Shown piece by piece: positions 1,588 to 6,051 of a stretch of 32,977 nucleotides of DNA (the first letter of the stretch is position 1; the number at the start of each line of letters is the position of its first letter). Made by a program: the position numbers and the translations under genes. The stretch comes from Sulfurimonadaceae bacterium (GTDB lineage: Bacteria > Campylobacterota > Campylobacteria > Campylobacterales > Sulfurimonadaceae): positions 1 through 32,977 of the forward strand of contig JADGEC010000026.1 of the NCBI GenBank assembly GCA_016744575.1, in the 5' to 3' direction. The notes beneath the pieces were generated by a model, which was not told the origin of the DNA, did no database searches, and saw only the letters and a list, made by a program, of their open reading frames with translations.

Positions 1588-2766
1588 TTATTGGACCAAC
1601 GCTTTTGCAGCCGCTACTGCACGACCTGCATCGATCTTACCGTAAGCTCTTTTTTCATCAAAAGTGAGATCGGTATCTGTATTTAGCACATAATCCGCAT
1701 CAGTACCACCGATCTTCTCAGCCGTACTTGTCAAGATCTCTTTTACTTGCTGTGGTGTGATATCTGGGTTCACAGAGTACATAAGTGCTACGACACCAGC
1801 AGTGACAGGAGTGGCATAACTCGTTCCATCCCCGAAGTGATAACTATCTGTCACAAGTCCATAGTTGTCTTGTGAACCTTGTTCCCCGGTATCATCCAGA
1901 CATAAGATCCCTATAGAATCACTGGCATTACCACCTGGGGCTAATACGTCTGCGTGTTCCCCATAGTTTGAGTAGGGAGACCAATCATTGTTCTCAGCAC
2001 TTGCTCCAACAGCTATTACCCATTCGACTTCGGATTCATCATTTACCTCTTCAGTATCTAAAGACTTACCGTCATTACCAGTTGCGAACAAGATGGTGAT
2101 CCCTGAATCGTATAAAGACTTTAGTTCAGAGACAACGGCCTCGGACACATCTTCAGATCCCCAACTGCAACTAACGACTTTCGCACCATTGTCTCTGGCA
2201 TATTCAAAAGCTTTAATAGTCGTAGCATCATCACTGGCCTCTAACTTTATCGCTATGAGTTTTGAAGATGGCGCTGTTCCGACAGTACCTTTACCGTTTA
2301 TGGACGAGGTGATAAAACCAGCACAGGTATTTCCATGTGACGCTGCACTCCCATCTGTTGACTTATTGCTTATATCATCAGAGTCGTCATCTGCATTATA
2401 GGCTAGAAACAGATTGTCTTTTATATCCTCATGCTCCACATCGACACCATCGTCGATCACTGCGACATAGACACCTTCGCCTTTTGTGAGTTTCCATGCT
2501 TGCGTAATATTGATATCAGCATCTTTGACGATAGCTGCATACTCAATACCTTCCTGGTCAAATGTGTCTTGAAAGAGTTCGTTCTGTGCCAGATAGGCAC
2601 TGGAGTCAAGATGCCATTGATATTTATAGTAAGGTTCACTACTGGCATCTAGATCAGATGAAGGACCATCATCGGTCGTCGGATCTGAATCACTACCGCA
2701 ACCACTTATTAAGAGACTCAAGACCAAGACAGTCGAAATGACGACAGGTCTTCTTTTATGTATCAT
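1588..2766 (-). CDS. Subtilisin-like (S8) serine protease, lipoprotein
   Basis: Secreted serine endopeptidase of family S8. The N-terminus is a lipoprotein signal with lipobox ISGC (Cys23), followed by a Ser/Asp-rich linker, so the enzyme is probably tethered to a membrane. The catalytic triad is intact: Asp105 in VAVIDDG, His144 in ASHGNTCAG, Ser316 in GDGTSYATP, with oxyanion Asn231 in FATGNDG. The catalytic domain begins almost directly after the linker (YYKYQWHLDSS, 46-56), where homologues normally have a propeptide first. Here the propeptide is the product of the preceding gene, whose stop overlaps this start by four bases (ATGA). A GAGAGGAAG motif just upstream of the ATG supports the start and suggests coupled translation. 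No C-terminal secretion or adhesion domain is seen; the protein ends soon after the catalytic fold. Confidence 0.93.
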   Translation of the reverse strand: MIHKRRPVVISTVLVLSLLISGCGSDSDPTTDDGPSSDLDASSEPYYKYQWHLDSSAYLAQNELFQDTFDQEGIEYAAIVKDADINITQAWKLTKGEGVYVAVIDDGVDVEHEDIKDNLFLAYNADDDSDDISNKSTDGSAASHGNTCAGFITSSINGKGTVGTAPSSKLIAIKLEASDDATTIKAFEYARDNGAKVVSCSWGSEDVSEAVVSELKSLYDSGITILFATGNDGKSLDTEEVNDESEVEWVIAVGASAENNDWSPYSNYGEHADVLAPGGNASDSIGILCLDDTGEQGSQDNYGLVTDSYHFGDGTSYATPVTAGVVALMYSVNPDITPQQVKEILTSTAEKIGGTDADYVLNTDTDLTFDEKRAYGKIDAGRAVAAAKALVQ

Positions 2767-3146
2767 CGTAGCTTCCTCTCTTTGATGAAGTTAGGATGGG
2801 CAAACTCTACGTCACCACTTTTGAACAGTTCTCTTGATAAAGAGAAGATGTCATCATAGTCCTCGACCTTTACAACAAAGATGGTATCTGTGAGTTTAGA
2901 GATGTTTGTTTGACTGAACTGAGCTAGAAGTCTCTCACAATCGATACCAGCGTTACACTTCACAAGTATCTCATCAGTTATACCTACTTTTTGTCCATTA
3001 CTTTTTTGAAAATACTCAATACCTGTACTATCAGTACTTCGTGATTGTAAGATCTTTTTAAGTTCGACTAGTTCGCCTTTTTCATAATAACTTTCGTTTG
3101 CACCAAGCAATAACGTAAGCGTCAAAAGTAACATGATCTTTTTCAT
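2763..3146 (-). CDS. Secreted stand-alone subtilisin propeptide-like protein
   Basis: Small exported protein of 127 residues, or 130 if the ATG at 3155 is used. I prefer 3146 because an AAGGA motif precedes it at normal spacing, whereas the same motif touches the upstream ATG. It has a Sec-type signal peptide (MKKIMLLLTLTLLLGA). The C-terminal 70 residues read like the propeptide of fervidolysin-type subtilases: a DEILVKC strand, an IFVVKVEDYDDI strand, then a helix ending in GDVEFAHPNF, the 'V-E-x-A-x-P-N' ending that fits the protease active site. The mature form has two cysteines in this part (CNAGIDC). The gene overlaps the downstream protease gene by 4 bases. Inference: it folds and/or inhibits the protease in trans after separate export. 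It is not a simple frameshift of one gene, because the protease has its own lipoprotein signal. Confidence 0.8.
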   Translation of the reverse strand: MKKIMLLLTLTLLLGANESYYEKGELVELKKILQSRSTDSTGIEYFQKSNGQKVGITDEILVKCNAGIDCERLLAQFSQTNISKLTDTIFVVKVEDYDDIFSLSRELFKSGDVEFAHPNFIKERKLR

Positions 3147-3327
3147 TCTCTTCATCCTTTTTAAGTCCTAAACACAGATATTTGACTTATGCACGAGCGA
3201 AGACTTACTGAGTCTCGACGTCACACTGGTCTGACTGATATGGATACTCTCTCATCATCTTTTCCCATATAGACCGTACGCGTCTCTTCCTCACTTTTTA
3301 GTGCAGGCAGAGACACCTGTGATCTGC

Positions 3328-5574
3328 TTATTGCTCGATCAGGTTTGCTTTTGCAGGCTCTGTACTGACCCAGTTGCCACTGATGTCACTTCCGATCATC
3401 ATGTAATAATAATCCAAAGGTTCTCCCTCATCATTGTCAAATATTAATGTCTCCAATGCAAAAGTAGGTGTTTTCTTAATAGTAAGGGTATCACTCTCAT
3501 AGAACCACTCTACCTCATTCGTCTGCAGGTCATAGTATTCAGCCAATAATGTGATCTTATCACCCTCTTCGAGTGGATGTGAAGCTTTGTCATATAAGAC
3601 ACTTCCTGTCGTATCTGTTGCTGATTGATAGACGATCTTATAAGGACGAACGCTGCTAAGGACAACATTGTCATCTTCATCGACTGTTATAGAAAGCTTT
3701 GCATAATCAAACTTCTCACCATCCTCATATGCCGAGTAGTCTTTATTCACATCCACGTAGTCGATCTCAGTCGAATAGATCCGGTGGTTGACACCTTCAT
3801 CACTGTATGCACTCTCAAATTCCATAGATAGCCAGCTGCTGTCACTTTCAGAATCTCCAAAAGACATCACATACCATTGCTGGTTCCATGTAGGTGTGAA
3901 GTATTCATCAACGTTATTTGTCTTTAATGATTGCAAGGTGGCTACAGTTGCAAAGTATTTTGTACCATCCTCTTCGGTGATGATATTGCCGTATACAGTC
4001 TTTACACTTTGAAGGTTTGTATCATGAAAGCTTGCACGTGTACCCGAAACAGGTGTGTTTGCACGTTTATTAGTACTTGTTACTGCAGAAAAACTAGCTA
4101 AAGGACCTAAGAAGGTCGAAGAGTCTGAGCTCTCTGTTGATCGGACTGATTTGGCGGAAGACGAATAGTACTCTTCATAATCATCGAAATCACTCTCATC
4201 AGCTTCAGACTGGGAGTCTTGATCTGAGATGGTCGGTGCCGTGGTGTCATCACTGATGATATTTTGCATACTTCGTGTCATAGCATACCACGCGCTACTA
4301 GGAGCGACATTTTCATTGTAGTCATCATAGCCCTCAGGTGGTGCTATGGTGACGCCATTGGAGTTTGGACGGGTACCATCTTGTTTGGAATAGACAACAT
4401 AATCTCCAAAGGCAGTATTGAGCTCTTCCGTAAGAGCACTCTCTCCTTTATCAGCTAGTTCGGATGCTATACCGTTGCTAAAGCCTTTAAGATCGATCGT
4501 TATTGCTTTGTCTCCCCGGGCTGACTTACCGTATTGCTGTGACTTCACTGCCGACTGAATAACAGATGTCTTCACCTCCGTATCTGTGAGTTGAGAGTCG
4601 ACATAGCTGGCCAATGCATCTACAGCTGTCTTAAGTCCATCATAATGATTCAGATCGACCATGGAGAGTGTCTTACCATCAGATTTATAAGGATGAGAGC
4701 TGTGTTTGACAAAGTTGTCTATTATCGTTTTTCCATAAAGTTCTAAGTCACTGTTTTGTGCTAAAGCAGGTACTACAGCAGTATAGTTCCATCCATGTCC
4801 AGGTTCTAGTTCTTCCGAACCAATATGATATCGGGCATATTTTTTCGTAACAGAGGCTAATTCAAAGTTAGCATTAAGACAGGCGTCATAACCGATGATA
4901 TCAAAATGCAGACCGACATTTTCAAATGCCGTATCCATCTCAGCCATGCTCAGACCATCACCTTTGAAATTTGAATCATTTCCAAAACTGCCGTATGCAG
5001 AGCCATGATCCCACATCGTCAAGACCTTTTGATCATGATCCGCGTAACCATCTTTTAGAAATCGTATAAATAACTCTAGCGATGACTCATCCCCCATGTG
5101 AGCCTCAGGAGAGTGATGGATGTACTCTTCGAGATTACCATACTTTCCATCTTCATCATCGGCAATGATCTGCGCCATACTTGCAATACGCATCCCTCGC
5201 CAACCCTCTTTGTTCGATCCACCAAATGCGACTACGATGTCTAGACTATCTTGTTCACTTTCGGAAAGTTCATAATAACCATCTATCAGTTCCTGAAGGT
5301 CATTTGTCCCTGCTCCCCCATTCTCTTCAAGGTCGCTTCCGACCATATAGATCGCCATGAGTTTTTTACCAGAGCCATCCGCCAGTTCAGGCGCGCTGTA
5401 ACTGCTTAGTACGCCATTGTCGCTACTGTACCCAGTAATACCTGCTTTAGAGGTCTGTACAGTCTGATCCTCTTTTCCTGTAGGAGCCGATTGTGTACTA
5501 CTTGATGAACCACAGCCGTAAAAGAGTGTGGATACAGAAAGAAGGAGTGTACTTAGAAGAGCAGAATGTCTCAT
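3328..5574 (-). CDS. Clostripain-family (C11) cysteine protease, putative lipoprotein
   Basis: Predicted secreted peptidase of family C11 (clostripain, often specific for Arg/Lys). I start it at the ATG at 5574, which has AAGGA 5 nt upstream and gives a good export signal. An upstream in-frame start at 5622 would add 16 residues ahead of the signal. The lipobox is unusual (LFYGC, Cys21). The C11 domain starts near residue 70 (KLMAIYMVGSDLEENG) and holds His190 in TMWDHGSAYG and Cys232 in IIGYDACLNANFELA, the expected catalytic dyad. The domain is followed near residue 440 by an Asp/Glu/Ser-rich stretch and a C-terminal part of about 250 residues that looks beta-rich and that I do not recognise. 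At 748 residues it is larger than clostripain (about 530). It ends 181 nt upstream of the propeptide/subtilisin pair on the same strand and may be co-transcribed with it. Confidence 0.9.
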   Translation of the reverse strand: MRHSALLSTLLLSVSTLFYGCGSSSSTQSAPTGKEDQTVQTSKAGITGYSSDNGVLSSYSAPELADGSGKKLMAIYMVGSDLEENGGAGTNDLQELIDGYYELSESEQDSLDIVVAFGGSNKEGWRGMRIASMAQIIADDEDGKYGNLEEYIHHSPEAHMGDESSLELFIRFLKDGYADHDQKVLTMWDHGSAYGSFGNDSNFKGDGLSMAEMDTAFENVGLHFDIIGYDACLNANFELASVTKKYARYHIGSEELEPGHGWNYTAVVPALAQNSDLELYGKTIIDNFVKHSSHPYKSDGKTLSMVDLNHYDGLKTAVDALASYVDSQLTDTEVKTSVIQSAVKSQQYGKSARGDKAITIDLKGFSNGIASELADKGESALTEELNTAFGDYVVYSKQDGTRPNSNGVTIAPPEGYDDYNENVAPSSAWYAMTRSMQNIISDDTTAPTISDQDSQSEADESDFDDYEEYYSSSAKSVRSTESSDSSTFLGPLASFSAVTSTNKRANTPVSGTRASFHDTNLQSVKTVYGNIITEEDGTKYFATVATLQSLKTNNVDEYFTPTWNQQWYVMSFGDSESDSSWLSMEFESAYSDEGVNHRIYSTEIDYVDVNKDYSAYEDGEKFDYAKLSITVDEDDNVVLSSVRPYKIVYQSATDTTGSVLYDKASHPLEEGDKITLLAEYYDLQTNEVEWFYESDTLTIKKTPTFALETLIFDNDEGEPLDYYYMMIGSDISGNWVSTEPAKANLIEQ

Positions 5575-6051
5575 GATTTTCCTTAGTGAGTTTAGATGAA
5601 ATAATACCCTATATATAGACATCCACCCTTGATATAAGGTAGTTTTTAGGACTTTTTCCGTGATTATTTTTAATATGAACTGAAAAAATTATATTATATT
5701 TTATAAAGTTTTTTATTTGGATAGACCTTGAAGACCCATTTAGTCAAAACAGACAGAGCGTGCGCTCTCTTATGTTGTGAACACGGATCAGTACAGCTAG
5801 TACACTAGTCATAGGACTCCTCGACTACGACAGATCACAATTGCCTGAAAAATCGAGACTCTCATTCATCTTCATCTATCCTCCATAGAGATAGTAAAAC
5901 AAGGTCCAGTTTTACTATTTAACATAGATGTTGGTGGAGTAATAATAAACAGCAGCCTACCCTCTTTTTTATAAAACATGTACCTGCCTCTTTAGATGAC
6001 TACATGTCGACTTTCCTTGACAATCACTATAAATACTACTAAGATTTCAGC
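5575..6051. other. AT-rich divergent intergenic region
   Basis: A long gap between the divergent C11 protease gene and a small plus-strand ORF. The 5600-5725 part is very AT-rich and should hold the promoter of the protease gene; several TATTAT/TATAAT-like boxes occur, too many to choose one. A short palindrome AGAGCGTGCGCTCT lies at 5755-5768. I see no RNA gene. Confidence 0.5.

Follow-up and report, generated by a model that had tools for sequence, protein, structure and literature searches.

The window analysed here, i.e., the whole 32,977-nucleotide stretch of a Sulfurimonadaceae contig, carries on its reverse strand a small gene for a propeptide-like protein and, overlapping its end, a gene for an S8 protease (Table 1). 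The protease open reading frame begins at 2766, inside the stop codon of the small gene (CGATGATA), an arrangement that may couple the translation of the two genes. Two in-frame ATGs, at 3155 and 3146, could start the small gene; because an AAGGA motif lies 8 nt 5' of the latter but abuts the former, 3146 is the likelier start, as the initial annotation had chosen. The small protein opens with MKKIMLLLTLTLLLGA followed by NES, cleavage being read between LLLGA and NES, and it ends in GDVEFAHPNFIKERKLR. The N-terminal region of the protease runs through LLISGC and GS to EPYYKYQWHL, with the catalytic domain starting soon after. Export signals and lipoboxes, here and in all other proteins, were called by sequence pattern or inspection.

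Table 1. Positions of the gene pair and its predicted elements in the window
Feature	Position	Strand	Remarks
S8 protease gene	1588..2766	-	392 aa; PF00082 is the sole Pfam family
Peptidase S8 catalytic domain	1708..2481	-	Predicted triad D105, H144, S316 and oxyanion N231
Asp243, NDES motif	2038..2040	-	Candidate P1 Arg partner, close to the expected S1 pocket
Lipoprotein signal peptide	2698..2766	-	Ends in ISGC; Cys23 is the predicted lipidation site
ATGA stop/start overlap	2763..2766	-	Offset -1
Propeptide-like protein gene	2763..3146	-	127 aa; 130 aa from the alternative ATG at 3155
C-terminal tail FIKERKLR	2766..2789	-	Ends in a conserved Arg that is predicted to act as a product-like P1 residue
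Propeptide core	2790..2981	-	Residues 59-122 of the 130 aa form; sub-threshold PF22148 match
Signal peptide MKKIMLLLTLTLLLGA	3099..3146	-	Type I-like, without Cys; read from sequence

Just upstream of the pair, on the same strand, lies a gene for a Clostripain-family (C11) peptidase (3328-5622) with a lipobox-like signal, LFYGC. When the neighbourhood was checked for a functional clue, the C11 gene did not adjoin the pair at L033, L034 or L036, three related loci whose flanking genes differ in each; the pair therefore seems to travel alone, and a conserved gene neighbourhood was rejected as a clue. A single further S8 gene turned up in the host genome, on contig 92 (749-1888; L002, L121); it has a lipoprotein-like open frame of 838 aa with extra N-terminal domains.

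Split pairs and one-chain homologues in Campylobacterales

A profile built from 15 split small proteins was searched against 399 genomes of the order Campylobacterales, to which the host also belongs, and matched in 84 of them. Once 80 loci had been retrieved and duplicates removed, the set comprised 62 split pairs, 36 one-chain homologues (32 in Campylobacterales, 4 in Ignavibacteria/Pedobacter) and 9 loci without a protease directly downstream. The nearest named relatives, Sulfurimonas MAGs, carry small proteins 52-58% identical to that of the window. Relative to the small-gene stop, the protease starts at -1 (the ATGA overlap) in 37 of the 62 split loci and mostly between -13 and +8 in the rest. 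Since the small gene recurs at 62 distinct loci beside an S8 gene, and since substitutions between two close relatives are distributed 13/7/23 over the three codon positions, we regard it as truly coding, beyond chance. The proposal in the initial annotation of a propeptide encoded as a separate protein with its own export signal is thus supported, both open reading frames lying where it placed them; the same split exists in other genomes, as the 62 distinct pairs attest, and the reading of the two genes as one unit from their ATGA overlap is likewise supported.

The one-chain homologues align end to end as small protein plus protease, in the same order, and split and one-chain paralogues occur within the same genome (e.g., G061, G137 and G149). 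On the best tree the split group needs two changes, but a tree with a single clade is compatible with the data (p-AU 0.464); the split genes thus represent one or two old clades. A search of plasmids returned one-chain forms only, in Nitratiruptor, plus weak rhizobial matches.

The existence of one-chain homologues with the same domain order might invite the view that a frameshift or sequencing error had simply cut such a gene in two. This view, which the initial annotation had already doubted, is refuted by the 62 conserved split loci, and its probability is negligible: a lipoprotein signal is present on each protease and a separate signal peptide on each small protein, one locus has the swapped gene order, and the split genes make up those one or two old clades.

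Order-wide, 91 proteases of the subfamily were found, with a propeptide directly upstream or in-chain in 85 and directly downstream in 1; the five without an adjacent propeptide comprise three contig-end or fragment cases, L131 and L130. L131 (G043 contig 238), an S8 protein of 776 aa, has a long N-terminus of a different kind and no recognisable propeptide, and the same genome holds an orphan small gene (L004/L080) whose last residue is other than Arg; the two may form an unlinked pair. L130 (G233 contig 67) is a lipoprotein protease whose adjacent sequence contains no propeptide gene, and a pair lies elsewhere in that genome, on contig 48 (L071/L142). In this pair the order is reversed, protease first and propeptide second, yet Arg remains the last residue of the small protein, an arrangement that favours action in trans. 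Orphan small genes occur (L004 and L028), and L112 and L120 are propeptide-like small genes ending in PNWKRxRGLK with no adjacent protease.

The protease is predicted to be an intact lipoprotein subtilase

Peptidase_S8 (PF00082) matched the protease at E 5.8e-49 (167.4 bits against a cut-off of 21.8), and the Pfam search found neither a propeptide nor a P-domain in it. The catalytic Asp, His and Ser and the oxyanion Asn are kept in 50/50 aligned proteases, D105, H144, N231 and S316 being invariant columns of alignment A5. Judged from its sequence, the enzyme is a member of peptidase family S8 (subtilases) with an intact triad and oxyanion Asn. It is also a predicted bacterial lipoprotein, with LLISGC as lipobox by inspection and a lipobox in the proteases of 61/62 split loci, the exception (L095) being a fragment. 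With PF00082 as its only Pfam family, the enzyme answers to the earlier description of a lipoprotein lacking a propeptide. In the NDES motif the Asp is present in 50/50 aligned proteases and the next Glu in 46/50; from its position in the fold, Asp243 may belong to the S1 pocket and bind a P1 Arg, and the window subtilase would probably be Arg-specific.

The small protein resembles propeptides and ORF2 in its predicted fold

The small protein had been labelled fervidolysin-like. The window protein itself falls below the cut-off of PF22148 (Fervidolysin_NPro-like; 16.2 bits against 21), but relatives match it better, with PF22148 in 8/15 aligned split proteins and a best E of 1.9e-6. PF18492 (ORF_2_N) behaves similarly, scoring 15.2 bits against a cut-off of 29.2 in the window protein and matching 5/15 aligned split proteins with a best E of 4.7e-4. 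The Pfam family Inhibitor_I9 gave no match to the window protein at E <=10, nor to its relatives at E <=1, and I9 membership was rejected.

An AF2 model of the small protein, built with 92 natural homologues, reached a pLDDT of 87.5 and a pTM of 0.75, its signal peptide region being modelled as a helix and then a strand. The best PDB match by Foldseek was 3wqb_B, the chaperone ORF2 from the complex with ASP (probability 1.00, TM 0.68 by target length, E only 0.013, 10% identity), followed by furin and furin-bound PC1 prodomains. A fold unrelated to subtilase propeptides, one of the outcomes that the initial annotation had named as refuting its reading, was thus not obtained. When the small-protein profile was searched against PDB sequences, ORF2 appeared at E 0.2-0.3, by itself non-significant. 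A weak signal to Itf52, EF-Tu and DNA polymerase beta in these searches was dismissed as chance-level, as it aligned over the N-terminal strand region only.

The one-chain homologue L068 was also modelled by AF2 (pLDDT 93.3, pTM 0.85). Its catalytic domain is nearest to furin and Kex2, whereas alignments to pro-subtilisin E and fervidolysin that reach the propeptides give an rmsd of 26-27 A, with a TM score hardly above that of catalytic-domain-only matches; either the propeptide is placed differently in the model or these alignments are wrong.

Protease binding by the small protein is our inference, and some copies carry a lipobox of their own, so that one could picture a targeting or secretion partner, or a substrate, with a coincidental propeptide fold. 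We find this very improbable, as the small protein shows colinear homology with in-chain propeptides as far as the Arg at the cleavage site and its model has the ORF2/prodomain fold. A propeptide acting in trans is the reading we pursue below.

The gene break coincides with the expected autocleavage site

Arg130 is the only invariant column among the 15 aligned split small proteins, and in 60 of the 62 split loci the small protein ends in Arg, the other two ending in Lys and Gln. As a crude background, 14/222 of the remaining long ORFs at these loci end in Arg; the 62 loci are also related to one another, though pairwise identity is often as low as 20-35%. In the one-chain homologues the matching column is Arg in 25/26 aligned and stands directly before the mature start (e.g., KKR followed by SLDPLFKYAWHL), the junction reading Arg and then D-P-x-Y/F-..-W-H-L. 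Because the same Arg directly precedes the mature N-terminus in the one-chain homologues, the gene break corresponds to their expected autocleavage site. The earlier choice of GDVEFAHPNF as the end of the propeptide left out the last eight residues, which hold the informative C-terminus, and the functional element is to be sought not in the PNF motif as such but in the terminal Arg at the extreme C-terminus.

Predicted lipidation accompanies the split

Among the 36 one-chain forms, only L115 has a lipobox pattern, and its Cys falls after the probable cleavage site and was taken as spurious. A lipid anchor on a one-chain proenzyme would be lost with the propeptide, and therefore two chains would allow the mature enzyme to stay lipidated. 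We propose lipid retention as the reason why the split persists, an explanation that is consistent with the data. The link is not strict for subtilases generally, as the contig 92 S8 protein of the host appears to be a long lipoprotein. The idea of a soluble inhibitor and a lipid-anchored enzyme fits the window and most relatives; about 6/62 small proteins have a lipobox themselves (L047, L050, L052, L055, L058 and L066), as does L071, so solubility is not universal and in these loci both partners would be anchored.

Discussion

Pro-subtilases are textbook intramolecular chaperones. The anatomy of the gene pair, its conservation, the reciprocal domain content and co-occurrence of its members and the fold similarity of the small protein all argue for a pro-subtilase pair, and we consider it likely that the locus encodes a two-gene, trans-acting pro-subtilase, in which an exported propeptide acts as folding chaperone and product-like inhibitor and its partner is a lipoprotein subtilase. 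The partner binding, chaperone need, inhibition, Arg specificity and release that we infer would proceed as follows: the upstream gene would give rise to the exported propeptide and the overlapping downstream gene to the lipoprotein subtilase without one, both proteins presumably leaving the cytoplasm by Sec; the free propeptide would template folding of the catalytic domain and then stay bound as inhibitor, its C-terminal Arg sitting in the S1 site like a cleavage product. Autocleavage would be needless, since translation of the propeptide stops at the very residue where the one-chain relatives are expected to self-cut. Activation would come from degradation or loss of the propeptide, much as the initial annotation had imagined release, and the mature enzyme would keep its own lipid anchor and remain membrane-tethered. 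Weighing against this reading are the L068 alignments that reach the propeptides, the Foldseek E of 0.013, the sub-threshold Pfam scores of the window small protein, the L130 protease and the orphan small genes.

A dedicated inhibitor or immunity-like guard derived from a propeptide, beside a protease that folds alone, would fit product inhibition through the terminal Arg, and stand-alone propeptide-like inhibitors of subtilases exist, e.g., Plasmodium SUB1-ProM (PMC6993865). SUB1, however, keeps its own propeptide, whereas the protease here has none; moreover, the protease almost never occurs without its partner (present in 86/91), and the one-chain relatives reveal the small-protein domain to be the propeptide itself. 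We therefore judge an inhibitor-only role unlikely and prefer the trans-acting propeptide.

The split is not unprecedented. Like the window pair, ASP-ORF2 of Aeromonas sobria (3wqb, 2mk4; PMC5638518) combines a propeptide-deficient protease with an adjacent small gene for a protein of the same predicted fold and a basic C-terminal residue, Lys in ORF2 and Arg here. Active ASP depends on ORF2, which also acts as its inhibitor and extends its own C-terminal Lys to the catalytic site (PMC5638518). In CspB, using engineered constructs, a prodomain supplied in trans restores folding, and the prodomain C-terminus blocks the active site (PMC3567191). The window pair thus shares with the ASP-ORF2 type a propeptide-less protease with an adjacent, separately encoded exported partner, and an ORF2 fold of that partner in the AF2 model; it lacks the combination of a kexin-like protease bearing a C-terminal P-domain and a downstream partner, the ORF2 gene lying downstream and the window small gene upstream with an ATGA overlap. 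Furthermore, ASP is secreted, whereas the window enzyme is a predicted lipoprotein, and pairs of the window type, unlike ASP-ORF2, have one-chain homologues that survive in the same order, together with a C-terminal Arg that hardly varies.

In a second class in Campylobacterales (L123, L124, L126, L128, L133, L135 and L139) the proteases combine S8 with a P-domain, and many of them carry lipobox-like signals; ORF2-like small genes lie downstream, on both sides or between tandem copies, and the last residue of the small protein varies (Arg, Lys, Gln, Tyr, His or Met). This class looks nearer to ASP-ORF2 than the window pair does, which suggests a continuum between the types.

One-chain fervidolysin-type subtilases (PF22148 plus PF00082) share the domains, order and junction Arg of the window pair; unlike it, they are single chains with one type I-like signal, and the mature enzyme is expected to be without a lipid anchor. 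The furin/Kex2 proprotein convertases, the best fold matches of the L068 catalytic domain, have a basic residue at the prodomain C-terminus. They are eukaryotic single chains with autocleavage and a P-domain, which the window enzyme lacks.

More tentatively, and with rather less confidence than we place in the trans-acting pair as such, these loci may define a subtilase class in which the gene split replaces autoprocessing: the ribosome would make a product inhibitor ending in the P1 Arg, and the enzyme would stay lipid-anchored, active only after removal of the propeptide, which is exported on its own. A single free propeptide may, in some genomes, act on two or more proteases, a possibility raised by the L130 protease, which has no neighbouring propeptide and shares its genome with the L071/L142 pair.

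Among open-licence papers, to which our search was limited, we found none on split systems in Campylobacterota. Subtilases with an external chaperone are already known; what is new is the C-terminal Arg, the link to lipidation and the finding of one-chain forms alongside the split ones. The present loci extend the ASP-ORF2 idea, which is known from Chromobacterium and a few genera of gammaproteobacteria, to many environmental Campylobacterales. One- and two-chain versions occur side by side within a single bacterial order, at times within a single genome, and the break lies at the predicted autocleavage site and accompanies predicted lipidation of the enzyme. These versions offer a natural experiment on whether autocleavage is needed, on the workings of a propeptide in trans and on the reasons why proteins split.
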